Shown here: positions 14,339 through 62,880 of the stretch, one piece after another
Position numbering within the stretch: the stretch's first letter is position 1
Layout: every line of letters starts with the position of its first letter
Source: Chaetoderma sp. LZ-2023a
Taxonomy: Eukaryota > Mollusca > Caudofoveata > Chaetodermatida > Chaetodermatidae
Length of the DNA: 64,000 nt
Assembly: GCA_034401795.1 (NCBI GenBank)
Contig: CM067366.1
Span: 83,934,147 to 83,998,146 of the forward strand
Reading direction: 5' to 3'
The notes under the pieces: model-generated
Databases searched by the model: none
What the model was told of the DNA's origin: nothing
The model's input: only the letters and a program-made list of their open reading frames with translations
Made by a program: the position numbers and the translations under genes

Positions 14339-16329
14339 TGGGGAGGGTAGGCGCCTCTACAACCTTCCTGGGTTTCTTCGCCGGCGGCGGCTCCGAGAAC
14401 CCAGCTGAAACAGAAGTCGCAACAGGCCTGGCTTTCGCCTTGCTCTTATGCTTCTTCTGCTTCTTTGAAGGCTGCCCCGTTAGCGGTTTGCCCACAGCCC
14501 CTAGTGCGTGCGCTTGCCGCACTAGGTCTAGCTGTAGATTTACCGCTAACCGATTCTGCGCGATACTGGCGGTGTCCTCTAAGATGGCCCACGCTTGGCC
14601 ACCAAAGATGCTAGGCCCTGTCAGGGGCGTCCCAAGAAGACGCTCCCTGACTGCCGTAGCCGGACGCATATGGTCAATGACCATTTGCCTCCTGGACTTC
14701 GTCACTCGCGCTTGCACCCTTGCCAATGCGTCCATTGACAGCACCAAGCCGTCATTAACACATGAGAGTGCCACAGGTGGCACAGGGTGGCCTGCCCCCG
14801 CTTCAGCCCACACCGACTGAAGGAGACGATAAGAGTGATTGACAGCGCTCATCGCTGCCCTCACACCCTCATCGCATAGGGACAGGACTTCTTCCTGGTG
14901 TACCTGGGACTTATCCACTAGTGCCGGACCGGGGCCATCCGACCCAGCACCCTCCCAGTACCCATCGGTCATCCTCCGTGACCGACGGGACTACACCATA
15001 CCTGTCGTATTCACCCCGCGGAATACGACATCTTGCCCGCACCTCCCTGGAGGCCGCAGGGAGCTGACCCTTGGTCATTAGCTGTTTGCTATAAATAGCA
15101 TCCAACAAATCTATGAACCGTGGATCCAGTCCCACTGACTGGATCCGGGCCGCGGGCAAAATCCCGGTCCTAATCGACGCTACCGACGGACGGGGCGCAT
15201 CTTCATCGGCCGTGGCCGAAACCACAGACGGGTCGACCCTGGCTAGCCACGCCAGAGCATCTGACCAATCTACCTCCGATGCAGACACCCCCGCAAACAC
15301 GTCACCCGTTGACGTGCTCACGGGTCTGCCAGCCACGGCCACCCGGCAAGGAGCCACGGCTGACACGCCAGGCACTCCGCTACCACACGGTTCCGCCGCC
15401 ACCCCATGAAACACTCCGGTCCATGGGGTAGGTCCGCACGGAAAACCGTACGGACCCGTAACAGTCGCGGAACCATAGCCGGACACGGGCGCCAACGGCA
15501 CCCCACGTCCGGCTGCCGGACCAGGCGAGATAGGTGAGTACCACGCCTGGCCCGGCACACCCGTTCCCATGACGGCTGGTGACAAACCAAGCCGCGCGGA
15601 ACCGGTGCAAGGTAACGGATTGGCCTCAGCCGCTGACCTGGCTTGCGCCAAACCAGACAAATGGAGGCCGGTTCCGTCCAGGACGGAATCAACCTCCATA
15701 TTCTCCACCTGCGGCTTCACGGGCCGCAGCAACCTCTCCTCCTCAGCCTCCTCGTCTTCAGATTCCGAAGAGCCGTCACTAGACGAGTCAACCGTGGAGC
15801 CGTCCTGGCGGACGGCTCCCATACCTGACGGACCGGCCACCGCTACTGGACCACCCGGAGGTGGCCGCAGAGAGACAGAACCCGTCTGACCGAAGCCAGA
15901 CGTGCCTGCCAGGGGACCGTACCAGACGGCCCCCTCGGTAACCAGTCCAGAATCCTAAGGCATGGGGAGAAACTGCCCCCCAACCTTTGGTAGCAGGGAC
16001 GACACCAGCGTGGGCAGAACGCTATGCAGAAAACCCTGCATAGCCGGACCAAACCACGCCGGCGGTGCCATCTCCGCCACCTCCAGCTGGGGACGTGGAG
16101 CACCCCCACCGGCCGAACCGGGCGCTCCACGATTTCCTCTCGGACCGCCTGACCCCGCGTCAGACCCAGCCAAGTCCTTCTGGGCAAGGAACTTAACCAT
16201 CATTTCGACGGACCACACTGCACAAACATTACACCTATGATCTATATTACACCTAAAACAGACATGGTCCTTGAACATTACACGGACAAACTTATGGCAG
16301 TCGTCACATGATGGCGGGGCTGGCTTGGC
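14250..16329 (-). pseudogene. DIRS gag-like protein, one TAG stop and one frameshift
   Basis: Likely the structural RNA-binding protein of the element. The N-terminal part has paired cysteines (CDDCHKF, CFRCNID, HRCNVC) spaced like a zinc-binding fold, then a Gly/Pro-rich linker. After a TAG at 15955-15957 the same frame continues through a Ser/Glu/Asp-rich stretch (DSSSDGSSESEDEEAEEE) and a Gly/Ala/Pro-rich stretch to RFIDLLDAIYSKQL. Near 14955-14985 the frame shifts into an Ala-rich helical segment (SAVNHSYRLLQSVW, LVRQAHALGAV) and a basic Lys-rich tail ending in KGGQKGPKRT. The frame opens just after a TTTTATAG that could be an acceptor (exon start 16329); DIRS elements are known to carry spliceosomal introns, so a leader exon is possible but not shown. 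Confidence 0.75.
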
Positions 16330-31560: not shown

Positions 31561-31839
31561 TGCTGGTCTGCCGATAAATATCCGCCCATCGCACCGCAAG
31601 TGCACGATGACCGGGATGGCTGGTTAGCTGTGGATCTCGGAGTTGCGGATCCCGTACAACGTCTCTCCACGGTGTACAAAGACCGACTTCTAGAGCTGGT
31701 GGAACATACTAATTTAGAGAATGGAATAATTAGAATAATATACTAGAAATATAAATAAGTACCATACAAACAAGGTGAATCGTTTGACAGTAGAATGAGC
31801 GCAATAATACACAATATAGGGCTAGCTGGTGTCCTTTCT
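31561..31839. other. Gene-free spacer
   Basis: LINE debris grading into unrecognised sequence; no feature supported. Confidence 0.4.
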
Positions 31840-32570
31840 ACGTGGTGTCGCCAGAGGTACCACACAGATCCTTGAATCTGCAGAGGTATCCCCGCAAGAG
31901 AAGCATCCGCATAAGAGATCACTGTGTAACTTAATATAAGATACTATACCTCTAACATACATAGATAGAACAATGTTGCTGCGAGAGGAAAATGCCTCGC
32001 GTGGGCGTCCGTCACCAAATGTTTCATGATGGTGTGAGAGGAAGGTGCCTCGCGCGAGCCTCCGTCACAGGAATTCTTGCTGTTGCGAGAGGCAAGTGCC
32101 TCGCACGAGCCTCTGTCACAGGAAAATGTCTTCGACACCGAAGTGGAGGAAAAGAGTTGGCAAAAACGGCTACTCTTTTGTTCAACAAAAAATGCTAAGT
32201 GCTAAAAATCCTAGTGAAGCCACAATTAACGTGATGTGTACTGGTTCATGTGAAGGTGGAGTGAGCAATTTCTGAAGAATTCCCACGTCACCATCTTATG
32301 TAGTTCCAAGATGCTCTATTGGTAGATGCCGCATTAGGCATGCGGGCCTTCTGCTACAATCTAACCTGCCAATTAGTTGTTAGAAACGAAAACTAGCTTT
32401 GGCCGCAAGTGGCAGGGATTCCTGCCCATCGTTAGATACAGCTGTCCAATGGGCACAGATGCTGAGCTTCCCGTAGATCACTTTGAAAGAGCATCTCCCT
32501 CCACAGACAGCATGCGTACATGTTACATCGCAACGCATCCGAATTTGATGAAAATCTGGCTATGAGTTCA
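31840..32570. repeat. Diverged half-copy of the giant palindromic element
   Basis: It is collinear with the right arm of the palindrome at about 41925-42620. Shared landmarks in order: AGGTACCACACAGA, GCAGAGGTATCC, TAACTTAATATAAG, 'tacctcta', GCAAGTGCCTCGC, 'catgcgggccttctgct' and 'tgttacat.gca'. Between 31980 and 32130 it has three tandem units of about 55 bp, each with a small inverted motif GAGGCAAGTGCCTC and GCCTCCGTCACAGG. It has only one arm. Frames inside (Arg/Ala/Ser rich) reflect the subrepeats. Confidence 0.8.
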
Positions 32571-37455: not shown

Positions 37456-39945
37456 ATGACGTCAGCTAAAGAGATTTGAAGGGACACAAAAAATCAAAAC
37501 ACTGCGATCCTGACTCAAATCCTCCTAGATATAAAACATCAAGGAGAGTAATGAGGTGCTGCATTGACAAGTGCGGGAGCTGCAGTCGTCGCAGAAAATG
37601 ACCAGTTTCCTACCATCAAAAGAAATTGACACCAAACAGTCATGCTACTAAGAGTAATCTAACTTACACATCCAATCCCCAAATCTTAAAACATCCAGAA
37701 AGAATATCATTAAACAGAACTACTAGTAACCTACCAACAAGAGAGTGCCATAATAGCAGTAGACAACAAACGACTTGCCACACAAAAAAGACTTTACTAA
37801 TTGGTAGTTCCACCCTCAGAAAGCTTAGTGGACACTGCATGTCAACAGATAACATCTGTATCATTGTTCGTTCTTTCAGTGGAGCTAGGATAAACGAAAT
37901 CTGTGATAGACTAGAGACGTTGCTAACAGATGACTATTATGATGCAGTAGTGGTCCATGTTGGCACAAACGACATTGGAAGGGGTAAACTAGAAGGCATG
38001 ATCACAGATTATGGAGAGTTTATTAAAATAATCCAAATCCATCTCGCCTAGTACAGAAATGTTCATTTCGTCACTTTTGCCAAGTCCCACTAGCAGATAT
38101 AATAACAACTTAACAGAAGCTTTTAATGGAATGCTCTGGTCGCTCACCAACTGGCTCGAAGTCAACTTCATTGGTAATACACAACTGTTTAGCAACACAT
38201 AAGGAGAACCCTATCAGGAACTGTTCCAGGAAGAAGTCCATCCAAACCACGAAGGGATCTGCTTATTATCCGACAAGATTAAAAATTATCTGCATTCATT
38301 GATGGATATCTTCAGGGACACAGAGGATTTTTATTATCCACAGACACAACCACGGAGGAGATAAAACAAGCAACAAACAGATCCAAAACAGTATCAAGAC
38401 CAATACAGCTATCAAACCACTTCAGCTTATTACACAATCCTCCTATAGCCGCACCACCAAATAAATGATTATGCATACGAAGACAGTGTAAATAACACAA
38501 CAAACATGAATACTGGAGCTGAACTGGAAAGGCTGGTACACGAGACTCATCCTGCCATCATATTGGTTACAGAAGTGCTACCTAAAAACAAAAACATGTG
38601 TTAGCGAACTACAGATTGCTGAATAAAACCTCTCTTTGAATAGTAACCCTTCACGAGGTGTCCTGATTTATGCTCATGAATCAATAGACGCCAAGGACTG
38701 TGATACACTAAATACTCATTGCTTCAACAAGTGAGTGTGAGCATCATGGATCTCACAACAAAAGGAAACAGTCATTGTTGGGAAAATCTGCTAAACATGG
38801 TAGGCGAGTTTTGCGCTGACCACGTTCTTATAATAGGGGACTTAAATTCCAATACAATTAACTGGAGCACTGGACTTTCAACTAATGGAGAGGAAAATGC
38901 ATTTCTGGATTCTACTAAGAATATTTTTCTACAACAACTAGTTACTAAACCAACTAAATCTGATAAGATAAATCAGAAATCAAATTTACTAGACCTCATC
39001 CTAGCAAAAAACAGGAACATTGTCCATGAAATAACCCACTCACTCCCTCTACATAAAAGCGATCACGACATTCTCAAAACTTCACTGCACCCAGACATTT
39101 TAAGCCATGCCAGACAGACAACATACCATTAATCAAAGGTAGGTATGCTGAAATGCGAACAGAGCTAGGAATGTTGGACTGGCAGCATCTAAACGAACTT
39201 GAAACAAACGAAGCATGGAACCTATTACACAGAAAATTAACTGCTATGAAAGAGCAATTTATTCCTATCTCTATGCAACAGGACAGAAACAAACATTTCT
39301 GAATTGACCAGACCACATCACAGTCACTTAAGCTAAAGAACGGAGCCTACAAAAAGCACAATATAACTAAGAAAACTTCAGATTATGAGCTTTTCAAGGA
39401 AGCCAGAAACAAAGCTACATCATCCATCCAAAGAACCAAACAGTCCTTTGAACAAAAAGTGGCGTCTGAAAGTAAAACTAACCATAATGCATTTTTGGAA
39501 CTATGTAAAAAGCAAAACAACTCTACACTAATCGATTAGTGATCTACGTAACCCAGCTACTGGCACCATTAGCACAGATGACAAAGAAAAAGCAAATATC
39601 CTCAACAACTTCTTCTCAAGTATCTTCACTTCCGAGGACTTGCATAATATACCAAGTATCAGCAATAGAGACACCAGCACTATTTTAGACAGTATAGTAA
39701 TAACACCCGTGGCTATTGAGAAAAATCAAATAAAAGCAATGGCCCAGACGAAATTCCAGTGAGAATACTAATCGTACTAGCCAAGGAAATCAATGAGCCG
39801 TTATGCATCATCTTTAGCAAATCTCTCTCGAAGAAGGTGTATTACCAAACATCTGCAAATTGGCTAATGTGTGTTGCATATACAAGAAAGGTTTTTAAAA
39901 AATGTGTTCTTCTAATTATATCGTACCCGTATAAACGGTCCCGAT
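37456..39945 (+). pseudogene. CR1-type LINE, 5' half: esterase-like ORF1, endonuclease, start of reverse transcriptase
   Basis: ORF1 (37626-38051) has SGNH-hydrolase-like blocks: KKTLLIGSSTLRKLSG (nucleophile region), SFSGARINEICDRLE and VVVHVGTNDIGRG (the GxND block). CR1-clade ORF1 proteins are known to carry such esterases. ORF2 starts after 38500. Endonuclease blocks are LIIGDLNSNTINWSTG and KSDHDILKTSLH (terminal Ser-Asp-His). A linker follows (YELFKEARNKATSSIQRTK, NHNAFLELCKKQNNS), then FFSSIFTSED. The reverse transcriptase is broken off near 39930, just before the NYRPVSL block, about 100 bp from the giant palindrome. Multiple stops and frameshifts. Confidence 0.85.
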
Positions 39946-40027
39946 GACTAAAAGGTACCATAACGGTCTTAGGACCGCTAGTTATAATTTCTGTATATGT
40001 TCATAGTTATTCTCATTTTCTGTAAGG

Positions 40028-43000
40028 TGTAGGAAAGCACTGCGAAAACATATCTTAATTATTATTTTATTTGCTGAACAATCCTCCCGAGCCACAGTGC
40101 AAAACTGGGCAACTTGTATTTAAACCTAACGACAGGTTAAACGGTTAGTTCCATAGGAGACAGTGGCGGGCGAGATACGCATCCCTACCGAATTCCATAA
40201 AAATGTCGGGGAATGATATTTAGATCTGCCACGCCCTCACGGGAAGGGCATTTACGGTGGGTATTCGTCTCTCTTATCCCCACCATAACGATAGATTAGT
40301 TGCCTAAAATGCTTTTGTGAAAAGTAACCAGTGTCTTGTGACGTTTTATGTGGTTACGGAGTGATATGTCAGGATTCTTATCCAGTTCGGAGATCTTACT
40401 AAGTAACATGTATGAGCGCTGTCTTCAGTATTGATGTCTTAGGGCATCCATTCTCAATGACAGCGGTGTCTAACAGCTAGGTAGACACCCGCCATTTGCG
40501 GCCTAAAAATAGTTCTTGTTTCTAAAAACTAAAAAGCTAGTTAAGCAGAGCAGAAGGCCCGCATAAATAAAGCGGCAACTACTAATTCAGCATACTAAGA
40601 ATTACATAAGACAGTGATGTGGGAATCCCTCGGCAATCGTTCATCCGGTCTTCACATAAAACAGCACGCAACCCTATAGTCATAATCTCACTAGGTATGG
40701 GCTTTTCTTTTCAGCATTTTGGTTAAATATTAGAGCGGGCCCATTTTTACCTACTACTCTTCTCCCGCTTTAAGCAGTGGCAACATTTTCGCCCAACGGA
40801 GGCCCGTGTGAGGCACTTACCGCTCGCAAGGATTCAACGACGACGGTCCACACGAGGATAATACTCCTCACCCATACTAGCACTAGGAGTAGCGCCCGTG
40901 TGAGGCACATGATTTTTCGTCCAAGATAATCTTCTTTCCTTTCAGCTTAGAGGTATAATAACTTATATTAAGTTAATTAGTTAAGTCTCGTGTACAGGAG
41001 CCTCCCTTGCGGGGATACCTCTGCGGACCTACGAGTCTGTGTGGTACCTCCGGGAGCCCCATGTTTAAAAGTTCATCCGGCTGTCTCTATGTCTTGTATT
41101 TTCGTATTCTCATTAGTTTTATCTAGCATACTCGACAGTCTGTTTAGATAAAATCATTGTATAGACTTATTTTAATTAGGTCACCAAAAATCCAATTTTG
41201 TAAGTCCATAGATCACGAAATTGCTATGGACAGGCATACTGATGACACAAACTCTTGGGATGAGACCGTTGTATTTAATGTTCGCGACAATGGTCGCACA
41301 GCCCCACTGGAACGATTGAGTTCCAACGGCCTTAGGAGCCAGTCTTTGTTGCCCGTAGGGCAGTCTCGTACAGGATCCGTCACCCCGAGACTGGATGCTA
41401 ACCAGCATCATCATTCGTTGTGCACTTGCGGTATGGCAAGTCGACATCACACACCGGAATGGCCCGACACTACCCCGCGAGCTACTGTAGCTCGCCGGGT
41501 AGTTTCGGGCCGTTCCGGTGTATCATGTCGACTTGCCGCGCCGCGAGTGCATGACGAGTGATGACGCTGGTTAGCATCCAGTCTCTGGGTGATGGACCTT
41601 GTACGAGACTGCCCTGCGGGAAACAAAAACCTGCTCCTAAGCCCAGTAGAACTCAATCATTCCGGTGGGGCCATGCGACCATTGTCGCGAACAGTAATCA
41701 CAACTGTCTCATAACACGAGTTTGTGTCACCAGTATGCCTGTCCATAGCAATTTCGTGATCTATGGACTTACAAGATTTGATTCGGTGGCCTAAAAATAC
41801 AAGTCTATACAATGAGTTTACCTAAACAATTAAAAATATGCTAGATAAAACTACAATAAGAGCATACGAAAATACGAGACATAGAGACAGGTAGACGAAC
41901 TTCTAAACATGGGGCTCCCGGAGGTACCAAACAGACCCGTAGGTCCGCAGAGGTATCCCTGCAAGGGAGGCTCCCATACACGAGACTTAATTATTTAACT
42001 TAATATAAGGTATTATACCTCTAAGCTGAAAGGAAGAAGGTTATATCAGACGAAAAGTGATGTGCCTCACGCGGGCACTACTCCTAGTGCTAGTTTGGGT
42101 GAGGAGTATTATCCTGGCGTGGACCTTCGTCGCTGAATCCTTGTGAGAGGCAAGTGCCTCGCGTGGGCCTCCATCTCAGGAAGGTGTCGCCACTGCTTAA
42201 AGCAGGAGAAGAATAGTGGGCAAAAATGGGTCTACTCTAATATTTCAATCAAAAATGCTTTTTAGAGAGAAAAGATCATACCTAGTGAGATTATGACTAT
42301 ATAGGAGTGCGTACTGTTTTACGTGAAGACGGGACGGGGAATTCCCGATGGATTACCTCATTACTGTCTTATGTGATTCTTGGTATGCTGAATTAGAAGT
42401 TGCCACTTTATTCATGCGGGCCTTCTGCTCTGCTTAATTCCTATTAGTTGTTTTCAGAACAAGAATTATTTGAGGCTGCAACTGGCTGATATCTACCTAG
42501 CTATTAGGCATGGCTGTTACGGAGAACAGATGCCCTAAGACATCAATACTAAAGACAGCGCTCATACATGTTATGTAGCAAGATCTCCGAACTGGATAAG
42601 AATCCGGACATCCCGCCCCGTAACCACATAAAACATTACAAGACATGGGTTACATTTCACGAAAGCATTACTAGGTCATTGTTCTATCGTTATGGTGGGG
42701 GTAAGAGAGACGAATACCCACCGTAAATATCCTTCCCGCAAGGGCGGCGCAGATCTAAATATCATGCCCAGACATTTTTAATGGAATTCGGTGGGGGTAC
42801 GTATCTCGCTTGTCACCGGGTCCTATAGAACTCAAGATTTCAAGATTCAAGATTCAAGATTCAAGATTATTTCTTCAATAATTCCAAGATAAACGTATTC
42901 ACGAATCATACCAGGTTGTCCGCCTAAGGCAGTGCCTAATAGTGAACTAACTATTTGACCTCTCGTTAGGTTTATATACAAGTTGCCCTAGTCGCACCTA

Positions 43001-43145
43001 GGCGTGATGTCCTTTAGGATTTTGCCTAGTATCAGTACAGATACAGATACAGATGCCCAGTTTTGCACTGCGGTGCGGGGGGGGGGGGATTGCTTAGTAA
43101 ATAAAATAATAATCAATACATATGTTTTTGCAGTGCTTTCCTACA
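40028..43145. repeat. Giant palindrome (3.1-kb inverted repeat, no spacer)
   Basis: The left arm (40028-41485) and right arm (41487-43145) are reverse complements along their whole length with moderate divergence. The centre is GCGAGCTACTGTAGCTCGC at 41477-41495, perfect except for the middle base. Matching outer tips are TGTAGGAAAGCACTGC and GCAGTGCTTTCCTACA. The right arm is longer by two insertions (42835-42960 and about 43000-43062). I find no protein-like frame: frames near the centre are shared by both arms and reflect the palindrome. No target duplication is visible. It could be a foldback element, an inverted duplication of an unknown element, or an unusual non-autonomous transposon. 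Confidence 0.93.
42835..42960 (-). mobile_element. LINE 3' tail inserted in the right palindrome arm
   Basis: Four or five TTCAAGA units, then 'ttatttcttcaataattccaag' and TCATACCAGGTTGTCC features. This is the reverse complement of the tail at 24940-25038. The left arm lacks it: its sequence passes straight through the same point (near 40160). Confidence 0.8.
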
Positions 43146-44270
43146 TTGGCTTAAAGTGCTAACTACTAAGTATCCGAAGATACGCGGGCAGGTGTATGTG
43201 ACACCACACCCTGGCCACCACCGTTCAGAAATCCCAATAGTTTCCCAGAGTCGAATTAGCCCGTGGTGCGGATAGGGACATCCAAGCAATTAAGAAGCCA
43301 CAAGGCTGAGTCTTTGGCTGACTGGAGCACGAAGAAGGACAAAATCTTACTTATGAGTCTTACCGGAGCTCGGGGCTAAATTATCACACTACCGGAAAAG
43401 AAGGAGCTTCAACTGCTAATGCTGCCACATATCTTCTTCTCGGTATCATCCCAATAGAAGGCCAACTGCACAAGAGAATCTTGACTCTATTTATAAACAT
43501 GGTGCGCAGACGAGATTCCATCGAGGCCCAGGTTATCCGACGTCAACTTGCCGTTAAGGACTCCGGTTCACACAGTTGGGTGATAATGGCTAGACAACTA
43601 CTCTCTCAGTATCAGCTCCCGTCGGCGTTTCAACTTGTGAAAACCCAGCCGTCAAAGTACATGTGGAAAAATCTATTGAAGCAGAGTGTCAATGCTTATT
43701 GGAGAGACCATCTAATTAGTGAAGCTACCTCTAAAGTAACACTATCATTCATCAACCTGAACTCCTGCACCATGAATAGATGTCATCCTATTTGGGAACT
43801 GACTAATACAGACACACTAACAGTCCTAAAAGCAGCAGTGAAAGTTAAATTAATCACACAGCGATATAACCTGTTTGGCGGATCTACGCGAGACCGATCT
43901 CAAAGCACTATCTGCCCAATGTGCAAGTCGACAGCTGAAACAATCACCCACTTTATCCTGCTGTGGCCGAGCTTAGAAGGTGTTCGTGTCACATAGCTCC
44001 GTAGAATAGATGACATCCTTCAGACAGCTGATGTACCAAGGCTGTGCGAGCTGACAGAGGAGGATGCCACTAGACTGATACTTGACGCTTCACATTTCAT
44101 TCCACTTAACAATCCACTGAGAATTCTCCTGGAACAAATATCACTAGACCTCTGTTTCAAGTTACACCACACTCGATCATCAAAACTTAGCGGAATATCT
44201 CGATAAACCGTACAAAGACGAGGTAAACCCCAAAAAACAACCAACAACAAAAGGCATACATGTAGTGATT
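43146..44270 (+). pseudogene. LINE C-terminal region with zinc-binding motif, 5'-truncated
   Basis: Frame 43481-43996 contains EAQVIRRQLAVKDSGSHSW, ARQLLSQYQLPSAFQLVKTQ and KYMWKNLLKQSVNAYWRDHL. The reverse-transcriptase zinc-binding end follows: STICPMCKSTAETITHFILL. After a stop at 43994 the sense continues with RRIDDILQTADVPRLCELTE to about 44200. Upstream, about 43380-43480 gives ASTANAATYLLLGIIPIEGQ. The catalytic domain is absent. A LINE lineage different from the CR1-like pieces, which lack this zinc motif. Confidence 0.83.
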
Positions 44271-45126
44271 AAGATAACGAAAATTCTGACTAGCAAATTT
44301 ACAGTCGTCACATCAGTCCAGTTCAGGGCTGATGGGTCTCCTAGAATTGGAGGTCACGCGAGTGGTCCACTTAACCATCATCAGGAAACCCCAAGTGGCC
44401 CTCACCTTAGATATTGGTGGTGCTATGCATGAGACTAATTATTCACTAATATTAAAAATACAACCAAATTTTTGAAATTTTTTCTTTAGAATGACTGTAC
44501 GGGTTTTCGGCTCAGTCATCCCAGTGGTAAATTTTCAAGAAATAATCTTCGCTTAGTTTTCTCATGCTTTAAAGATGGTACAGCTGATTGTGGATCTTAA
44601 AGGTGCGTGGTTCGATAATAAAGTTCATGCTGTTATAAGAACCACCATTACAGGCAACTTCTTCAGCGTGGTCTTTAAATGTCAGTGATATTTATGATTG
44701 TCAGTTGGTAGCGCTGATTGTGGTGCGATAAGCGGACATTAATAAACCGCATCAAGTAAGAACCACCATCTGCGCCCAAGAGTTGTAACCACCGCAGAAT
44801 GTTGGTGAAAGTTATTGCTGTGTTTCGGTGCCAAGTATAAGATAAAATCAGATTTTGCTTTAAGACAACACCTTGTTTTGTGGATTGTCTGCTGTAACAA
44901 CACCCGTGGTTAACTGGAATAATTGCACTCTATAATTACGGGAAGCCGTATTGTCACACACCCCACGGACAGACAGTTCCGTAAACACGTCGAATACAAC
45001 TGGGGCCAATGAGAACGCTTGACCAATGAGAAAGCATGTTACCTAGAAGGACGACGCAAGCACGTGCGTATGTCCCAGAGATGGAGCATTCTGCAACAAG
45101 CTCTTCACCATAGAAAAAGCAAAAAA
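44271..45126. other. Gene-free stretch with a P1 remnant
   Basis: P1 remnant at 44480-44560 ('agaatgactgtacgggttttcggctcagtcat' features). Otherwise unrecognised. Confidence 0.45.
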
Positions 45127-45360
45127 ATTCGTATTAGTAGCCTACTTTCATCATTTTGAGCGATTTTCTGAAACGTTAGCAGATTAGAACATTATTAATT
45201 CTATTCGGACATTGAATACAAATTCTCTTCATATATTCTAAATTCTAACTCAAAATTGTTAATTTTTCGTATTAGTAGCCTACTTTCACAAATTTTTGCG
45301 ATTTTCTGAAACGCTTGCAGATTAGAACATTATTAATTGGATTCGAACATTGAATAAGTG
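45127..45360. repeat. Tandem duplication, period about 137 bp
   Basis: Two copies of TTCGTATTAGTAGCCTACTT ... GCGATTTTCTGAAACG ... GCAGATTAGAACATTATTAA, separated by diverged AT-rich sequence. No coding signal. Confidence 0.88.
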
Positions 45361-46110
45361 TTCGATCTTGTCAAGAAATATAGGAAATAAACGAAACCTT
45401 TCTGAATTCTAAGAATTAAGATACAACAAAATATATTTTGTTCAAAAAATGTATTCTTACGGATTGGATTCATTTATATTTCAAAACGGTTTTTAATTTA
45501 AACACGGCTTTGCAAAATTAAATGATCACAGAATTTATGTAGTCTACATGTGTACAAAGTTACTTTTTTTAACCGCTAAACTTGTTTCGCCATTGCTACT
45601 TAAATTCCGTTGTTTTCGCCGATCCGGCTTTTAGTATCAATCAGCTTTATCGCTCAGCTGTCGCCGTCAGCTAGCTGTCAGTTAACTATTCAAGATTCAA
45701 TTACCTGAAACATAGGAAACAGATGTTAGAAAAGTTAGAAATAGGAACAACAGGTATATAGATATATCTGAAAGGTATATCGTCACCTAATCATAGGTAT
45801 AAATAAAACATAGATATATAGAATACTAGATAGACCAGGCGGCCAAGATCGGTATACTAGCGGCCAAGATCCTACGGCGGCCAAGATTGGTGTACACCGA
45901 ATTGGAGAGGCGGTATCTACAAGACAAGTAACAAGTAAGAAGAATATATTACACAGTGTGTAATGGAGACATTGTCTCTAATCGTTTGAACCTATTCTAT
46001 CGAGCTGAATAGAAAAGGTTAGTCGGTAGCATGCCGGGCTAAACAGAGTTATAGCATAGCACGGACAGCGACCTTAGTGAATAATTGTTGGTGGCGGGAG
46101 AAAGTGCTGC
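45361..46110. other. Gene-free stretch
   Basis: Contains three short copies of GGCGGCCAAGAT at 45838-45892 and nothing else recognised. Confidence 0.45.
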
Positions 46111-46114
46111 ATAT

Positions 46115-46790
46115 GGGTCATTCCGTGTCAAATCAGCAAATTTCCAGAAATGTCCCCACTTGACCGTCTCAGAATTGCTTAATATTTTGTTTACAGCTAC
46201 CTACACATATTTTAGGTGATTATACAAAATTATAGAGTCCAGTTTTACATACTTTTCAAAATATTGCAGTTTGAGTAACATAGGTGGCGAAAATGTTACA
46301 GGATTTTCGCACATGTTATTTTTTCCGCAACTTTCAAGTCCTAATATCTCCCTTATTATACATGCTAGCCATCTGAAATTTTTATCATTAATTCACTGCC
46401 ACGTGTCTTACTGGAAAATGCAAAGAAATGCCAAATACCTTTATAAATCTTTATTTAATGCTTTACCAAAAATGGCAAAATAATCTTCGACATTGTGCAT
46501 TTTGCAACTTTTATCTGAGAATAAAACACAAACTGTCTGCAGTTAGGGCTTGCCTTTTCACATGCTTTATGTATCCATATAGATGAACATGCACAGGTGT
46601 TTGTAACCTCCTAAGTTTATAACTTGCTGCAAATATTATTAAGAGGGACAGGTGGCACACACTATTGCTATATATCAAAAGAAAGCATATGGTCTAAGCT
46701 TAAAATTTGATACCTAGAACAACTTGCCCCTATGATTATTTCAGTGTGATATTAATTTAACAAAATAGGGTTATTTTGTCAATTCGCGAT
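46115..46790. repeat. Left terminal inverted repeat
   Basis: From GGGTCATTCC to CAATTCGCGA; mirrored at 53501-54221. It lacks a block of about 55 bp that the right copy has near 53663-53718. Confidence 0.93.
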
Positions 46791-47217
46791 TGATTAATTA
46801 TGCATAACTCAGTAATTACTTCGGAAATACTTCAAAGTGGATTGAATATTCAAGAACAAATTTAAAGTAATAAGTATGTAACACTGCTTCCATATAAATC
46901 TTTAGCACTAATGTCAAAATTTTCAAAAATTTCCAATTTAAAACAAGGTTAAATTGATGCCACTTTTGTAAACAACTTTCTCAGAAGATGCTGCTGCCTT
47001 AAACATCATCATCATCTAAGGAAATTGTTTTCCAAATCTGTTAATGCCAAAAACAAGAGAATGTTAATGCTAGTGTGCTCAGGATTAAAGCTGCATTAAG
47101 GTAACTTCACTAAATTATATGTAATTGTATCTTGTATATCAATCATGTTTAGGCTTTCTCTTTCTGTTGCTAACTATGTACAAGGAGGTAGTCAGCATAC
47201 TAGCATAGTACAGTTGC
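46791..47217. other. 3' noncoding part of the long-TIR transposon
   Basis: About 430 bp between the left TIR and the transposase stop. No feature recognised. Confidence 0.5.
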
Positions 47218-48270
47218 TTACATGTAACAGAAGTTATTTACGACAGAAACTTGGTAGCAGAAAATGTTCTGAAACACTGTAATTTGTGTCATTGTGTCCT
47301 GATCCAACTTATACTGACGACCAGTTATTGTGGTAAGGTTTGTCACTGCACAGAGAATATGATCAGTTGGAACAGCACATTCATCTCGTCTTCGTGGCCA
47401 AGAAAATGATCTTGCTGGACCTTTTGGCTGCATGAAGTTAATCAGAAGATCTTGATGCTCCTCCGATATCTCTACAATGTTTCCAAGATACCAGTTCTGA
47501 TCATAAACCGTGGCTACATACTGTCCTGGTTGAAAGTTTAGAGACGTTTCTGTGCCTGAGACGCTCACTTTCGTACTGGCACCGTTTTCATCAGCAGATA
47601 TTCTACTAATGCGTAACTCACTAGTACTGGTGGGAATGAAGCAGTGATGGCTCCTTGTTCCAGGAATCGTACCTGCATTTGCGAAACGCTTTAGTAGACT
47701 AGGGCGATGCTGTTCCACATCAGTGAGTGATACATAAAAGAAAGTGATACCATGAACATTAGATTGTGACCACTCATATAATTCTACCGGTGTAAGAATA
47801 TGATTGTCTGTGGTGTGTTGCAGACTGCTTCTTGCAGCAAGTCTCTTAACTGTTCCTCCAATTCCATCACAAACACTTTTACCGTGGCTTGTTGCAAAGA
47901 AATGCCACTCAGCTGATAAACCAAAATCTTGTGAATGTAGACACAGGTTGCGGAAATTCTTATGGTTTTTATATTGTCCTCCACATCCATCACTAAAGTA
48001 CTTTACATGCTTAACATGAGGCAGCATTTCTTTAAGGTATTTTACCACAACATTAATGAATGCATACCAGGGTTGATAAAAATCATGATTTTTTTTATAA
48101 AAATCAAAAAAATCGGATTTTTTTGATTTTAATCGATTTTTTTGATTTAAATCAGATTTTTATAACCATGTTTTTTATATTACTAATTAATGATAAGATA
48201 TGCAATTTTAAGTCAATTTAATTAATTTATTTCAAATCAGATCAATATAGTTATACATGTATATGATGAT

Positions 48271-50894
48271 TCATTTGTTAAGTAACTTGTAAACAAAAAC
48301 AAGCTTGCCAGCTTTCTCAGTACCAAGACGGTTTCTCACTTTTGAATGCACAAAACCAAAAGTTGAGAATATTCTCTCAACACCTGCACTAGAGGCAGTA
48401 GCACCAAGTATTGCATATATCATGTTTAGCACATGGTCACTGACTCTGTCTGATAGAGATTTCCACCAGGCAAAGGGAGACACAGATTCCAGAACAGATG
48501 AACTAAACAAGTAATCCTTAAATGGATCTGCTCTGGCCCGGTAGTTCATGATTATAGGTATCATGTCTGGGGATGACACAGACACATACTCCATCACACT
48601 GTCAGTTTCCTTGGTAGACAATCCTTTACCAGCAGTACGCGGATCCAAAATATAGGCGAGATAGTGGGCAGGAGTGAGTGCCTGCTTACATCGTTCGTGG
48701 AACTTCTTCATAATGCTTAATGATACCCCACCTTCTTCAAAGTCTTTTTCCAACTTCTTCCATACACTAACTGCATCACTGAGAAAACAGCTATCACTCT
48801 GTACTATATCCAGGGCAATGGAGATTGGCTTAAGGAGCCTCAAATAGTCCTCTGCTTGTCTCTTTATCCCAATATTTTGCACTTTACTAGCCACATTTGT
48901 GTCTATACTATCCCTATTTTCCTCACACACTTTCAAAATGATGGACCAGTTATCCAGGTAGCACTGAAGGCAGTCAGCTAGCGTATTCCAGCGGACATCT
49001 TGTGGTAGGACGAGTCGCTTGCCTCCCTCTGCCTTGTACCATGCTGCTGGTAAATGTGTATTGCGAAAGTACTTCACAATCTGTGTGACGTGTTCCTTAA
49101 CACCCTTGATCTCTATGTCATGAGCAAGTAGGTTCATGAGGTGGGCTGAACATCCATGGGCAATAATGTCTTTGTGGTCTTTCTTCAGTTCTTCACGCAT
49201 CTTACGCATGTTAGCCGCATTGTCAGTTACAATGCTACCTATGTTACATTTAAACTGTTCTTCGCAATGTTTAATAGCACTACTAGCAACCTGTTTCATG
49301 TACTCAGCAGTGTGACTGTGGCCTGACGTATCCACAGTCTCAGTAAGATAGGAATCACCATCCGAAGTGGTTACAGAGACACAAACTACAGGTTCATTAT
49401 GTATATTACTCCAACCATCTAAACACATGGAGACAGTCTTGCCTTCAAGCCTTTCTTTACACTCATCCTGCAGTGACTGCTGAACCTTGTCCAGTAAACT
49501 ACCGGCTACTTCATACCAACTTGGTGGGCAGTAGCCTGGTCTCAGCATCTGGACTAGTTTAATGAACTCTGGATGTGTGACTGCAGAGAATGGTGTGTTA
49601 GTAGCGTACACGTAGCGACCGACTTGCTCATCGATGGCGTCTTTCTCAATTTGGGATGTTCTCAAAACATAGTGGTCTAGACCTGCAAAATAAAATATTA
49701 CTGTATCAGCCAGGAAAGGTAGACACATGTGGGATAATGTTGACATTAGTGTGCTAAGGGTTAACTGGCTGACTGCTCTGAGCTACTTGAGAATAGTTTC
49801 AAGCTGCATTACTCAAAACCTGCTAAATAGTGTGAAAACAATATAACTCAAAGTTGTTGGTGATTTATTCACCAAGAAGTTTCAGTCAAATTGTTTTCAA
49901 AATATTCAAGTAAATTTTTTTAGTTATTAATTTAGCAATATTACTGTTTCAGCCAGGAAAGGTAGACACATGTGGGATAATGTTGACATTAGTGTGCTAA
50001 GGGTTAACTGGCTGACTGCTCTGAGCTACTTGAGAATAGTTTCAAGCTGCATTACTCAAAACCTGCTAAATAGTGTGAAAACAATTTGACTGAAAGTTGT
50101 TGGTGATTTACTCACCAAGAAGTTTCAGTCAAATTGTTTTCAAAATATTTAGTAGTTTTTAGATGAGTCTCACTATAGTTTTCTGACATAAATCTTTTTA
50201 GGAATTTGGGATTAAAATTACAGTACTATGCAGTGATAAGGTTAATGTGTCCAAATTAAGCCAATTAACTACCTGACTGCTTAACTGTTATGTAACACCA
50301 CAGGTGTTATCACCTCACACAATCAATAAAGGGGTCTGCTCTTGAACAACACTGCTGTCCTATAAAGATCTCACAGTAATAGACTAACTAAGGTGGTAAC
50401 CCTTTGATTGCCTTGTTTATTTAATTTATTTTTAAATAAGGCAGTGTATTTGTTTGCAAAATTATTTAACTGTAGAAAACATATAGACTGTAACTGAAGG
50501 ATTAGCTATTAATCAGTTTTAATTACTTGGTCAAGAGTTAGGCTGAGTTAGTGTGTGGTCTGTCGGTCAGATTATCAGTCTGTTTGTCAGTTAAATTTTT
50601 ATTCACAAAATATTATATTCTCTTACCTGCACTGATTTTGGTTCTCTTGGTAGGCGTACACAACGGTGATGACTCCCCTGCCTCTGGGGCAGGGCGCTTC
50701 CTAGGCGTAGAGACTGTTATTGCTGGTGTATCTTGTGTATCAGTCTTACATTCACTATGATGCTGCTTCATACGTGCTACTATGCCTTGCATAGATTTGC
50801 CACATTCTTTACACTTAGCCTTACAACCAGATTTACCAATCTCAACATCCTTATCAAAGTACATCCAAATGTGATCTTGCTTTCTTCCAGGCAT
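48271..50894 (-). CDS. hAT transposase, two exons (50894-50627 and 49682-48271)
   Basis: Exon 1 starts at the ATG at 50894 and encodes a BED-type zinc finger (CKECGKSMQGIVARMKQHH then C), then a basic Pro-rich linker (TPRKRPAPEAGESSP). The donor is GCAG|GTAAGA at 50627/50626 and the acceptor TTTTGCAG| at 49683; the joined frame reads through in phase 1 and gives 559 residues. Exon 2 has the hAT RNase H-like domain: first Asp in MCLDGWSNIHNEPVV, second Asp in SIVTDNAANMRKM, CSAHLMNLLAHDI (C-x-x-H block) and LPQDVRWNTLADC. The C-terminal hATC region is LGATASSAGVERIFSTFGFV (catalytic Glu) with SKVRNRL. It cuts and pastes the element by binding its ends. No stop or frameshift is seen, so it may be functional. 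Confidence 0.92.
49706..50150. repeat. 237-bp tandem duplication in the hAT intron
   Basis: Two nearly identical copies starting CAGCCAGGAAAGGTAGACAC (49708 and about 49953), each ending in a P2-like hairpin: ACAATTTGACTGAAAGTTGT, a GGTGATTTACTCACC loop, and the mirror arm. The copy nearer exon 2 spans the start of exon 2 and its acceptor side. Confidence 0.9.
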
Positions 50895-53500
50895 CTTAAC
50901 TTATTTTGAACAAATGATGAGTTAAGAAACATTCTATTTGCTTATATGTACTGTGGGATTCAATGTGTTTTCTTAACCTGGCTGCATGTAAACCAGATCT
51001 CTCTTACACGAGTGCTGTCTATGTTTTTTTATCCATCAATGTCCATCAGTTTACATACATTGTTTATCAAAGTCAGAGAAAGGAGTTAGCCTGAATGTTT
51101 TGATAATCTAGCAAAGTCTGGGCAGTAAATGGGGATAATGGGGTTATAGTATCAGGGACAGAAGCAACACCTATAAAACAACTGTGAGGCAAGGTCAAAA
51201 CAACAGTTTTTAAAGGTTATTGGGTGTATACAGATGAAATAAAGCAAGTAATACAATATGATGATTTTATTAAAAAAAACACTGACTTTTAAAAAAATCG
51301 CATCATGATTTTTTTGATTTTTTTGGACTGATTTTAATCATGATTTAAATCACTGATTTTAATCATTTGATTTAAATCAAACAACCCTGATGCATACACA
51401 CTTACTGTGTCATGTTGCATACAATCTCTGATTACACACAGAGATAAAGGCTTACACAGCATGCCGTCTTTGGAGTAATAAACAGCAAACGGATGCAACG
51501 TTGCTTGCTTGTTATCCCAATAAAATCCTTGAATGGAATCCTGAATTATAAAGGAGTAATTCTCTGCAAAGTCTAACAATACTAACATTGTATTATCATG
51601 TTCATGTAATGTCTCTTTGCAGCTAGAAAGGTATGCAGCTTGTGCTTTCGCAATGTAATGGTGGGTTGTCAGATTATCAAGTTGGTCACACAGCAGATTG
51701 ATGAAGTCTGGCACCCATTCCTGTCTAGTAACAATGGAAGTCCGATCAGTATGCCCCCACTGTTTAAAATTAATGACATCATCTTCATCCATTTCCATTT
51801 GATTGTGGATAAGCTCTGTTATATGTGTATGCAGGGCATCTTTTCCTGGGCACTGGCTACAGCGGTGTATCATACAGTCTCTGGAATGAATGTCACAAAC
51901 AACAAGCGACATTAATGAAGTGTATTCCAGTTTTAGTTCAGCAACTGCTGCTAACAAAAGTTTCACGTTTTGGTGGATCTCACAGATGCACACAGAATGG
52001 GTGCCTCTAGCCCCAACTGTTATACACCATGGTGGGCGCAGTTCACAGAATTTGGAAAAGCCTATTTTGCAGGATTCATACTTTTGTTTAAATGCTACGT
52101 ACAGTTCATTCAAATTTGCTAAGAGCAGGCGCTTTTGTTTGTGTATACGATTTCCATCAATTTTTATTGAAAGGTAGTCCTTTTTTCCAGGGCACAAACG
52201 AGAGTATTCATCACTTTCATAAAACACGGTCACTTGTTTCTTGACATCTTCTGTTAATTCATTTCCCTTCTTGGTTGAGGGTTCCGCAAGAATGCCATGG
52301 GTTTTTTTTTAACTCTCTGGCTTTCCTAACCACATACTTTGTCACATTAAATTCTGTAGCAGTCTTCTCAAGTGACCAGCTTGGAGGTGCCATTGTCAGT
52401 ATTTGTATTTGCTTTTGTCTATTTGACACACTACATTTTTGCTTCATACATAAAATAAGTTCTTTAAGATCTGTACATTGCTGACAAACTGGTGTCTTCT
52501 TTACCAAATCATCTGGCTCTACTTTCAAATTTTTGGCAAGCTGATATTTCATGGCAGTCTCTGCTTGGGCTAGTTTGCGTTTACCATAACCAACCATATC
52601 TCTCTGGCTGACCTTTATTTTAAGGGGAGAGCATCCAAGTGAGGTTATGCTGGTATTTAGTTGACTTGCATGCTTGCCATCACTCTGATCTGTGTCATAT
52701 GAATCACTTTCTAAATTATCATCATCTGTAAGTTCTGCAACAGGTTTAGTATCCAATGAAAATTTTATCATACACTTTGGACATAACTTTTGACCGGGTT
52801 TAATGTTATTCCCTGTGGTTTTATTTAGTTTCTCAGTTGCAGTGGTATTCAAGGTACGTAAGTTTCCTCTGACTGGCTGACCATGAACAGAATATGGATC
52901 ACAGCACTTCTTTTCTAAGAATTCATATTTGTCTAGGTACAACTTTTTATGATGCAAGCATACTGTACTTTGTTGAGTTACTGTCATATTCTGTGGTAAG
53001 TCACAACGTTTAAACATAAGGTCTTTATCTTGAAGTGATAAATCACATATTTTCACAAAGCCTGTCTTTTTGCAGTAAGTCAGTTTATGACAGTCATCTT
53101 TGCAGTTCATGCCAATAGTACAGGCAGCCATCTTAGATGCCATAGTCACTCAATCTGAAAAACAAACAAGAAAATATTAATGACCAGACAGTTAATAGTT
53201 TGATTTAAATTGAGTTTCCTTGGTAAGTGGGCTGCAGGTATGAAAATATAACACTGACACAAGAAAATTAGGTACAATTTTATTTCTTGAAATTTTCTAG
53301 TCAGTAGATATGTACATAATTGCTAAGCTATATTATGTTCATATACACTGTGTGCGTATCTACATGTATTAAATATAAATATTAATGTAAAAATAAGATA
53401 TATTAGCAACATGTCTCATTAGATATATCACCCTGTTTCTTAAACATTTTAAAGTAATATTTAAATTTATTTTACAGAATTAAGTCTAGGATGATAACCA

Positions 53501-54221
53501 TTCGCGAATTGACAAAATAACCCTATTTTGTTAAATTAGTATCACACTGAAATAATCATAGGGGCAAGTTGTTCTAGGTATCAAATTAAAGCCTAGACCA
53601 TATGCTTTCTTTTGATATATAGCAATAGTGTGTGCCACCTGTCCCTCTTAATAATATTTGCAGCTGAAACTTGACATGCGTGAAGATTTTCTTGTTTTCA
53701 ACAAGTCATATCTCTAAAAGTTATAAACTTAGGAGGTTACAAACACCTGTGCATGTTCATCTATATGGATACATAAAGCATGTGAAAAGGCAAGCCCTAA
53801 CTGCAGACAGTTTGTGTTTTATTCTCAGATAAAAGTTGCAAAATGCACAATGTCGAAGATTATTTTGCCATTTTTGGTAAAGTATTAAATAAGGATTTAT
53901 AAAGGTATTTGGCATTTCTTTGCATTTTCCAGTAAGACACATAGCAGTGAATTAATGATAGAAATTTCAGATGGCTAGCATGTATAATAAGGGAGATATT
54001 AGGACTTGAAAGTTGCGGAAAAAATAACATGTGCGAAAACCCTGTAACATTTTCGCCACCCCTATGTTATTCAGACTGCAATATTTTGAAAAGTATGTAA
54101 AACTGGACTCTATAATTTTGTATAATCGCCTAAAATATGTGTAGGTAGCTGTAAACAAAATATTAAGCAATTCTGAGATGGTCAGGTGGGGACCACTTGC
54201 TGATTTGAGATGGAATGACCC
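53501..54221. repeat. Right terminal inverted repeat
   Basis: From TTCGCGAATTGACAAAATAA to GGAATGACCC. It is the reverse complement of 46115-46790, with an extra segment containing TGAAGATTTTCTTGTTTTCA. Confidence 0.93.
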
Positions 54222-54225
54222 ATAT

Positions 54226-55089
54226 ATAAGTGTTGCTATATAGTGTTTCTGACCTATCATCCTATGTCACAGTATGTGCACTGCAGTCCTATATTCTATA
54301 AATAAGCAAAACATACGAACGGATGGCCACTGGCCATATATATACATAATCTAACCAGACCAAACAATACGGTGTCAAATGAATCCGCAAACAAGAGTTC
54401 CGCAAGAACACTCATGGTGGGAGTGCATCGCTTAGTGCTGTAGGCCTAATAGAATGCCTAACGAGCAGTCGGTAAAAGAGATGATAGTACTATGTGGTGA
54501 GGAAAGTTCCCGTACACCGATGGCACGGATGGAAGGTGTAAACAACCCGTCACAAGCGGGGGTTGTCCGAGGCAAATGACTATACAAAACAAAGCTTCAC
54601 GGTTTTAAACCAAATCAATTTCACTGACCCGCTCCGTCGCCAAAACAAGCCCCTAGACACACAATTTAAGCCTCTAAAAGTATAAAATTTTAACAATTTT
54701 ATTTTCAGGCATTTTAGTGTGAATATGCGTCTAAGACAGACTAAATCTAGTCATTCATGCTGTAATTGCTTATAACATCAACCTACATCTCACAGTTCAT
54801 TACAATGTCATATGATGGATGGATAAACTGGAAAGGTCCATTGGCCTAGTGGTTTAAATCTGTGATGGTGCATTGGCATAGTGAGTTTAACTTTCACTAA
54901 AATTGATAGACGATAGACAATAAAAGCGGGTTTTCATGGATATTGCGCATCTGGCTATATCCTTATTCTTACCCATCATGAAAAGTGGTAACTCAAGTTT
55001 ATTTCTGTTATTTAGTTTTACCGCTTTCTACCTATGACGAAAAAAGTATCATAGAAGTATAGTAACTACGTAAGTAAGTAAGTTTACAT
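54226..55089. other. Gene-free stretch with MITE remnant
   Basis: Near 54800-54840 the end GATGGATAAACTGGAAAGGT with CCATTG matches the right end of the composite MITE (60661, 61947). A TGGCCTAGTGG near 54843 resembles a pol III A box, with no B box seen. Confidence 0.45.
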
Positions 55090-56552: not shown

Positions 56553-59500
56553 ATGTCTTCTCAGATGAGCGTTGAAAAAGCACATGAGCCTAAAGATTTG
56601 GATGTGACCGCTGCAAGGCGTGGAGTTTGGTTGGTCAAGGTTAGTGAACTGTAAGGCATGGAGTTTGGTATGCTAGTTGGTTTAGCTTAAGTCAGCTGTC
56701 TGATGGGGAGGTTGGTTTAGCTTAAGTCAGCTGTCTGATGGGGAGGTTGGTTTAGCTTAAGTCAGCTGTCTGATGGGGAGGTTGGTTTAGCTTAAGTCAG
56801 CTGTCTGATAGGGATGTTGGTTTAGCTTAAATCAGCTGTCTGATGGGGAGGTTGGTTTAGCTTAAGTCAGCTGTCTGATGGGGAGGTTGGTTTAGCTTAA
56901 GTCAGCTGTCTGATGGGGAGGTTGGTTTAGCTTAAGTCAGCTGTCTGATGGGGAGGTTGGTTTAGCTTAAGTCAGCTGTCTGATGGGGAGGTTGGTTTAG
57001 CTTAAGTCAGCTGTCTGATGGGGAGGTTGGTTTAGCTTAAGTCAGCTGTCTGATGGGGAGGTTGGTTACATCAGGGCATAATTTATCTGGTATCGCATCT
57101 CAATTTGCTCCATGCATAGCTGTAACTGCTTTGCAAAATTTGTATGCGATTGCAATTTATCACTGATTTTCTTAAGTTGTATCATCATTAACCATTTCAA
57201 CAACAAATCCCTGAAAAAGTAAACTCTTTACAGTGTAAAGCATATTCTGTTTTGAAATTAATATGACTGGAAGCCATTGCTGCCTAAAATATTCTACAGC
57301 TATCCTGTCTCTCTGAGAATGAGATACAGGAATTTATCGGTAAAAGAGTAAATTGCTATATATATTTCTGCGGACAACTACATGTATACAATGTATAATT
57401 TCTATAGCAATATATGCTATGCAAATATCAAATTCTAAATTATGCCTTGTACATGTAGTTAACATGGTTAACCCGTTAACACTCATATCAGCCAAAAAGC
57501 GGCTTCTGCAGTGGTCTTGAGAAATGTCCATTTGCAGACCAACATGATCAAGACAAGACTATTTTGGAAAATTTACCTCAGGACTGACTGGCTCGGTTAT
57601 CGAGCCAGTCATTCCAGTGGTAAAATTAGAAACAAATAGACTTCTTGGTCTGCAAAATGGGATTTTCTATGAGAAAATTGAAATTTTATTGAACAAATTC
57701 AAGGGTTAAAGGGCTAATCCTTTCACGTATAAATTCTCCATACCTCATTTTCAACCCTACCATACATGCCATACTGGAAAAGTGAACCGATTTATTTGAA
57801 ATTATTTGACTGGAGGTTGTTGCTGCCTAACTATTCAACGGAGTAAGTTTTATATTGTAAAGGCTATACTTTTTCAGAGATTTGTCCTTGACAGCGTTGA
57901 GGTAACTTGACTGGACGATGAGGAGTTTGTGTTATTTTGAACAGTAAGTTAGTTGGCTGCGGGATGGATCTACTGTTTTGTTTGGTTAAGCTACGTGTAG
58001 GCCAGCTGCAGGGTGATGGATTTGGTTGGTTAAGGTAATGGAGGAATCCAGTTTTAGCTATGTCCTGTGTATCTTTACAAGCCTGCAAATAAGGTGCCTG
58101 TCAAGGACATTGTCAGGCAGCAAACTAGCAAATGTTTGTTGGATTCCATCACACTTTTTTCACAAAAGTTATTTCAGTTCCGGAGCTGCAGAATGGATTG
58201 TATTGAAACCGAGCAGAATTCATCGATGACTAAAAGTTTGTTCAATTGAAATCAATATGTGAAAAGACATTCCAGGCATGGATCATGCAAGCAAAATTTA
58301 GCATTTAGTGGTCAAGCTGGTTTAAACCCGCCTTTGCAGTGTTCTTGAGGAATGCCCATTTGCAGGCCAAGAGAAGACTATTTTTGAAAATTTGGCACTG
58401 GAATAACTTGCTCGGTTATCAGGTGTCCTGTCATGGCCTGCAAATGGACATTCAATAAGCAAGTATTTTAATTTTCATGACTAAATTTTACCATTAAAGG
58501 TTATTCCAGTGGCAAATTTTCAAAAATAGTCTTCTCTTGGCCTGCAAATGGGCATTCCTCACGACCATTGCAAAGGCTGGTTTAAGCCAGCTTGACCACT
58601 AAATGCTAAGTGGTAAATATATATGTATATATATAGATACATGTATCTATTCTTGTTTGCCAGGTACCTAAGTATTTATCTGAGAAATGGCACAAAGCTA
58701 CAGGTACATGTGATGTCGGAAAACTAAGAATTAGCCAGCCCAGGTACATTTCATTTCATTTAATACTGATGATGATTATAATCTTCATTATCTGCATTCG
58801 TTTGCTTTCCTCACCTGGCTTAAATAAACAGCAGTGTTTCTCAAACATTGTTTGATTTAACATGGGCTTATTTAACCCTTTGCTGCCAGTAACGGCTCAG
58901 GCCATCCTGCTCACTCCAGACTGTAACAGCTTAAGCACACACCCCCCCCCCCCCCCCATGCATTACCAATGACATTGATAACAAAACTTTTCCTGAAAGA
59001 ATGCTCTCCCTTTAGCTGGTAATTGTCTGTGTTTTGCAGGCATATTAGTGTGGTGAAATACAGTACCGGTATATGCGTTGAAGTTATTTTAAGAAGATTG
59101 GCAGCTTGCCCACCAGCCAGATGCTGTAATATCGCAAATAACTCGTCACAGGGTATATGGAGATTTAATATGTAATCGCATAGCATTGTCAGACAGGCGT
59201 GTGGGCGGCAGAGTGGTTTCCGGATGATAACTCTGTTACCATTTGTCAGATCGCATTGAAACTTCATAGGGTAGTTGGACTAGGTCTTGGGAAGAAACCT
59301 ATCGAAATTGACAATGATCTGAAATCCAAGATGGTCAGCAGCCCTCTTGAAAATTGGTTTACAGATGATAACTCTGTTACTGTTTATCAGATCACTTAGA
59401 AACTTCATAGAGTGGTTGACTAGGTCTGGGTCAGAAACCTCTTTAAATTGATGATGATTCGAAAGCCAAGATGGCCACCAGCAGCCATCTTGAAAATTTG

Positions 59501-62153: not shown

Positions 62154-62880
62154 GTAATATATTACTGACGTAAATCATAGGTAACATATCACTGACGCAG
62201 GTCATAGGTAATATATCACAGATGTAGGTCATAGGTAATATATCAATGATGCAAGTCATACATGTAGGTAATGTATCACTGATGCAGGTCATAGGTAATA
62301 TATCACTGATGCAGGTCATAGGTAATGTATCACTGATGCAGGTCATAGGTAATGTATCACTGATGCAGGTTATAGGTAATATATCACTGATGCAGGCCAT
62401 AGGTAATATATCACTGATGCAGGCCATAGGTAATATATCACTGATGCAGGCCATAGGTACTATATCACTGATGCAGGCCATAGGTAATATATCACTGATG
62501 TAGGTCATAGGTAATATATCACTGATGCAGGTCATAGGTAATATATCATAGGTAATATTTCACTGATGCAGGTCATAGGTAATATATCACTGATGCAGGT
62601 CATAGGTAATATATCATGTAGGTAATATTTCACTGCTCCAGGTCATAGGTAATATATCACTGATGTAGGTCATAGGTAATATATCACTGATGCAGGTCAT
62701 AGGTAATATATCACTGATGCAGGTCATAGGTAATATATCACTGATGCAGGTCATAGGTAATATATCACTGATGCAGGTCATAGGTAATATATCGCTGATC
62801 CAGCTCATAGGTAATATATCAGTGACACCAGTAATAGGTAATATTTATCAGACACTGTTCATAGGTAATATATCATAAAC
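62140..62880. repeat. 27-bp minisatellite seeded at the GTF2F2 exon-3 splice donor (~25 copies)
   Basis: The unit contains GTCATAGGTAATATATCACT then GATGCAG. The first unit overlaps the end of exon 3: the exon ends GTCATAG at 62153 and the intron starts GTAATATAT. Nearly every unit therefore repeats the CATAG|GTAATA donor, a TCACTGAT branch-like string and a GCAG|GT acceptor-like string. It is open on both strands because the period is a multiple of three, giving spurious repetitive frames. Confidence 0.97.

Follow-up and report, generated by a model that had tools for sequence, protein, structure and literature searches.

A 3.1-kb, almost spacerless palindrome in a Chaetoderma genome is probably a tail-to-tail pair of decayed LTR copies

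Foldback elements are transposons with long inverted arms. Long quasi-palindromes are also formed by closely spaced inverted transposon pairs, such as inverted Alu pairs and the inverted Ty pair of yeast fragile site 2, and inverted repeats are described as riskier when they are longer, more similar and separated by a short spacer or none (PMC7999016). The locus described here resembles those pairs in that two opposite copies of one element make up a long quasi-palindrome, but differs from them in that the spacers of those examples are 12 bp or more, whereas here the spacer is 0-1 bp, the copies meet at their natural 3' ends and the arms are ~15% diverged (PMC7999016). It differs from foldback elements in having no palindromic family among the copies examined, in tips that are not conserved as ends, and in arms that appear to be separate LTR copies. 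Among the papers listed in searches for palindromic, inverted or self-inserted LTR joins, no such case was evident by title or the start of the abstract, and we do not claim that such joins are unreported.

The window, by which we mean the whole 64,000-nucleotide stretch of Chaetoderma sp. LZ-2023a DNA that was analyzed, lies on a contig of 107.7 Mb in a genome assembly of 2.44 Gb. We read the palindrome within it, with a probability of roughly 0.85, as two independently inserted and since decayed LTR copies, probably of Ty3/gypsy type, arranged tail to tail so that their U5 ends meet at position 41486. The features on which this reading draws are as follows.

39900 to 40030, plus strand: upstream piece of the left LTR copy, corresponding to positions 756-886 of copy L011 (BLAST).
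40028 to 40030, plus strand: deletion junction in the left copy, with ~614 bp absent relative to L011 (886 to 1501) and a 3-bp overlap, TGT.
40028 to 41485, plus strand: left arm, comprising the 3' (U5) portion of the left LTR copy, whose last bases are ...GCGAGCTAC (genome matches, 20 copies compared).
41486, no strand: centre base T of the U5-U5 join, which is one base short of a join between two complete ...CTACA ends.
41486 to 43403, minus strand: right arm and its continuation, the 3' part of the right LTR copy (homology to family copies).
42833 to 43050, minus strand: part of the right copy that holds both unpaired stretches (self-comparison of the arms).

The innermost parts of the arms, 41189-41485 and 41487-41783, are 87% complementary over the 297 bases that flank the centre on either side, with a single base between them, and further paired blocks of 80-96% continue out to the tips at 40028-40053 and 43120-43145. 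Self-BLAST of the 3118-bp stretch agrees with this pairing, giving 83.9% over 2711 aligned columns, far above chance, and the inverted repeat with one mismatched central base that the original prediction placed at 40028..43145 is thus borne out. The centre reads GCGAGCTAC-T-GTAGCTCGC; the unpaired T lies at 41486, where the arms meet. Their identity to each other is 84-87%. The right arm is longer mainly through two repeat-bearing stretches that lack a left-arm partner, ~42833-42929, with a (TCAAGAT)5 run at 42832-42868, and 42989-43050; the segment between them, 42930-42988, pairs with 40107-40165. An artefact of assembly, whether a fold-back read or a mis-join, is very unlikely given arms that are ~15% diverged and differ in their insertions and deletions, and given a join at the element's own end, a position that a mis-join would not much favor.

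To place the unit in the host genome, we used the left arm as a query. Of the 45 matches obtained, one is the window itself and 37 are other places; the rest are partial or split and include the right arm of the window. At least 37 other places match at least 1300 of the 1453 bases at 89-92%; this copy number is a lower bound, as 40 of 11,804 first-look candidates were scored, and it includes some unplaced contigs whose scores are identical in pairs, which may reflect duplicate haplotypes. For comparison with their flanks we took the best-scoring 20 of the 37, which are therefore copies chosen by likeness to the left arm.

The unit is single in all 20 copies, where the second long BLAST match is the right arm of the query aligned to one and the same unit. 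No opposite-strand piece of the 1.46-kb unit was found in any of the 20 within the 3165-3300 bases examined 3' of the unit end, and among the 45 matches the sole opposite-strand neighbor within 100 kb of another match is the right arm of the window. Copy L012 has a 58-bp same-strand piece of the unit downstream, adjoining a further same-strand piece of LTR. In L023, a short inverted duplication of LTR sequence is present (~973-1157 versus 1206 onward), and the other 19 copies have the normal orientation only. Within the window itself, a distant relative of the LTR (66-72% identity) lies on the minus strand at 31593-32462 and carries a 51-bp tandem repeat at 31973-32119.

Upstream of TGTAGG, homology goes on in all 20 copies and in the right copy of the window (to 43403), and in most copies it spans the upstream sequence examined. 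The same holds for the left copy once its deletion is allowed for: the piece at 39900-40030 is matched at 91-97% in 17 of the 20 copies (in L015 over 69 bp only) and in none of L012, L017 and L027. The apparent TGTAGG left tip is therefore a consequence of the ~614-bp deletion, with TGT as microhomology at the junction, and the sequences TGTAGG...CCTACA cannot be kept as the tips of an element, as had been proposed. The 5' end of the LTR was recognized for neither copy within the window. These observations also bear on the suggestion that the locus is a DNA transposon of foldback type, whose inverted ends of 1.4 kb adjoin without a spacer. Such an element would explain the long inverted arms and the matching tips, but no opposite-strand partner is present in any of the 20 copies over the span given above, homology passes the supposed tips in every one of them, three copies run into a retrotransposon-like interior, and a deletion junction accounts for the left tip. 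A single unit and homology beyond the tips lead us to reject a foldback element, which we regard as the least credible of the explanations considered. The host-genome search that had been recommended thus did find many dispersed copies with the left-arm query, but of a single unit whose ends are not the predicted tips.

What the dispersed unit represents is indicated by its 3' boundary. Downstream homology ends at or within ~8 bases of ...GAGCTAC(A) in 17 of the 20 copies; ...AC followed by A is kept in 16, with L010, L011, L021 and L028 stopping a few bases short. No shared sequence starting at this U5 junction was found in 17 of the 20, some of which have other repeats in common farther off. 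L012, L023 and L025, alone among the 20, have downstream sequence in common, with first pieces of 620-758 aligned columns; in L012 the common part starts ~520 bases farther downstream, after a second piece of the LTR end. In copies with this interior, the ...CTACA end is followed by AG and a TGGCGCC-type sequence resembling a primer site, which lies directly at the end in 3 of the 20 copies, as ACAAGTGGCGCCC in L012 and L025 and as the one-base variant ACAAGTGGTGCCC in L023. This primer-site-like sequence may correspond to a lysine tRNA.

One of the three interior copies, L023, has Pfam matches in the same orientation as the unit to Integrase_H2C2 (2.8e-15), rve (4.9e-9) and then Integrase_p58_C (1.5e-12). 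The nearest solved chain to this integrase is the Ty3 Gag-Pol polyprotein (E 7.4e-15), with the PFV integrase nearly level (1.5e-14). By eye, L012 and L023 have similar proline-rich, gag-like frames downstream; Pfam gave no match for these frames or for a frame of L025, no reverse transcriptase was recognized in the interior stretches examined downstream of the copies, and none of the copies showed an LTR on both sides of an interior. Because the ~2.95 kb upstream of the primer-like site in L025 is common to copies without an interior, the LTR would be ~2.9 kb or longer. In the window and in several copies, open frames of ~110-150 amino acids extend across the LTR 3' end, and three of them (window, L010 and L014) had no Pfam match up to an E value of 0.1.

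On the simplest reading of these data, the dispersed unit represents the U5 portion of an LTR that is ~2.9 kb or more in length and precedes a primer site and an interior of Ty3/gypsy type. An LTR is suggested by the U5 end together with the primer-like site and the gag- and integrase-like downstream sequence, and Ty3/gypsy is the likely, though not proven, superfamily. As in Ty3/gypsy LTRs, the unit is dispersed, has a fixed ...CTACA end, and is followed in some copies by a primer-site-like sequence and a gag-like open frame and in one by an integrase for which Ty3 is the nearest solved chain, by a narrow margin; unlike them, it is long, at about 2.9 kb or more. The original prediction had offered, as a second possibility, two head-to-head copies of an unknown element. 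The two copies stand, but in tail-to-tail orientation, and at family level the element can be named as a probable Ty3/gypsy-type LTR.

We next consider how the two arms are related. A tree of 22 rows is a star, in which the end branch of the right arm is 0.14 and that of the left arm 0.044, the latter equal to the median of the others (0.044). Over 41486-42832, the right arm is 82.7-86.2% identical to the 20 copies, and the left arm has a mean identity of 92% to those copies and 85% to the right arm. The right arm has 85 unique letters of 1300, the left arm 28 of 1290, and the other copies 13-32. Among 136 rare letters of the right arm, 3 also occur in the left arm; the 20 other copies have 1-9 of 133-138. 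With so few rare letters in common, and with insertions and a deletion confined to one arm or the other, the earlier claim of diverged arms that are no simple fold-back is supported.

One explanation of such a pair is that a single LTR was duplicated in inverted orientation, by template switching or repair of a broken end, followed by divergence of the two arms. Fold-back synthesis would be expected to leave an almost spacerless join. A tree constrained to group the arms is worse by 14.7 log-likelihood units, but sister arms are not rejected in the AU test (p 0.17). Arms of equal age, however, should match in their amount of private change, which at 85 versus 28 unique letters they do not; the 3 of 136 rare letters in common, the closer identity of the left arm to other copies than to its partner, and a join that falls on the natural U5 end speak against it as well. 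Because a duplication predicts change that is equal and common, and the private change is unequal with little in common, the arms do not appear to be one duplicated unit. We consider an inverted duplication highly improbable, and disfavor it on the private changes. Most likely, judging from these comparisons, the arms are independent copies. The right copy would be the older, as it carries two nested insertions and about three times as many unique letters as the left copy, but its divergence could instead mean that it belongs to another subfamily, given that the copies compared were chosen by likeness to the left arm.

The remainder of the right copy was traced through the following features.

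43404 to 45937, plus strand: later insertion of 2534 bp in the right LTR (AGAAG on both sides; empty-site alignment).
45938 to 46114, minus strand: right LTR, continued (L011 1258-1084; matched in whole or part by 20 of 20 copies, inverted in L023).
46115 to 54220, no strand: DNA transposon of 8.1 kb that entered the right LTR later (inverted ends GGGTCATTCC..., flanked on each side by host (C)ATAT).
54221 to 54382, minus strand: right LTR, continued (L011 1088-945).
54385 to 54603, minus strand: right LTR, last piece recognized in the window (L011 602-379).

Relative to L011, the right copy lacks ~340 bp near 54383. The 2534-bp insertion is probably a 5'-truncated LINE, as suggested by the frame at 43322-43996 and a repeated tail; that frame had no Pfam match. 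The 8.1-kb transposon has terminal inverted repeat blocks of 343, 133, 93 and 82 nt that are 96-98% complementary, and an open frame at 48271-49782 with hAT C-terminal and DUF659 domains, and a second frame of 313 amino acids (47218-48159) had no Pfam match. Its near-identical ends suggest that it moved recently.

Across the window, several open frames match reverse-transcriptase, endonuclease and hAT domains in Pfam, and the region appears to be transposon-rich. Rfam and tRNA scans of the window gave no match. On the minus strand at 11192-15954, an RVT_1 frame (2.1e-22) lies beside a frame with a weak match to a phage-integrase N-terminal domain (PF02899, E 0.00028, just under the cut-off), next to which the frame at 11192-11920 had no Pfam match; this segment looks like a DIRS-type tyrosine-recombinase retrotransposon. 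Two tandem arrays are also present, one at 56676-57067 (35-bp unit, 11 copies, 98% matches) and one at 62147-62875 (27-bp unit, 27 copies, 81% matches).

Returning to the join, two complete ...CTACA ends would read CTACATGTAG, and the window reads CTACTGTAG, one base fewer. No target-site duplication was readable for either copy. Under the order that we slightly favor, because the right copy looks older, the right copy was there first and the left copy then integrated in the opposite direction, at the right U5 terminus or no more than one or two bases from it. This order would require that one base was lost or changed. The reverse, in which the right copy went into the last bases of the left copy, needs no loss but seems to us distinctly less probable, and some form of end-joining a little less so again. 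One version of the last is that two different cDNAs were joined U5 to U5, by end-joining or strand transfer, before or during insertion, so that both entered in one event. Both U5 ends are exact at the join to within one base, as this would predict, and RNAs from different subfamilies could account for the unequal divergence. Against it, unique letters are three times as numerous in the right arm as in the left, the closest to the right arm of the 20 copies (chosen by left-arm likeness) is about 87% identical to it, and no such pair occurs in those 20 other copies. We hold this single-entry route to be unlikely.

Under the preferred reading of two separate insertions, each arm would later have acquired its own insertions and deletions. 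It is improbable that two random insertions should meet exactly end to end in a given pair of copies, but the window was singled out for holding such a pair. It is a doubtful proposition, to which we attach little weight, that the integrase favors its own LTR terminus, which would make U5-U5 tail-to-tail joins recurrent and this LTR family a source of kilobase palindromes. The arrangement is best seen as a by-product of dense transposon insertion, and we ascribe no function to it. The divergence of the arms probably makes a long, almost spacerless palindrome tolerable, and a divergence of 15% is consistent with helping the structure to persist.

The structure is thus ordinary in kind, a product of transposon build-up, and its one mildly odd feature is the almost exact end-to-end join. 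A candidate for an unknown giant palindrome is removed, being accounted for by two LTRs placed end to end, and the case illustrates that inverted transposon pairs can mimic a new class of element. Exact U5-U5 joins such as this one may be a record of self-targeted integration.
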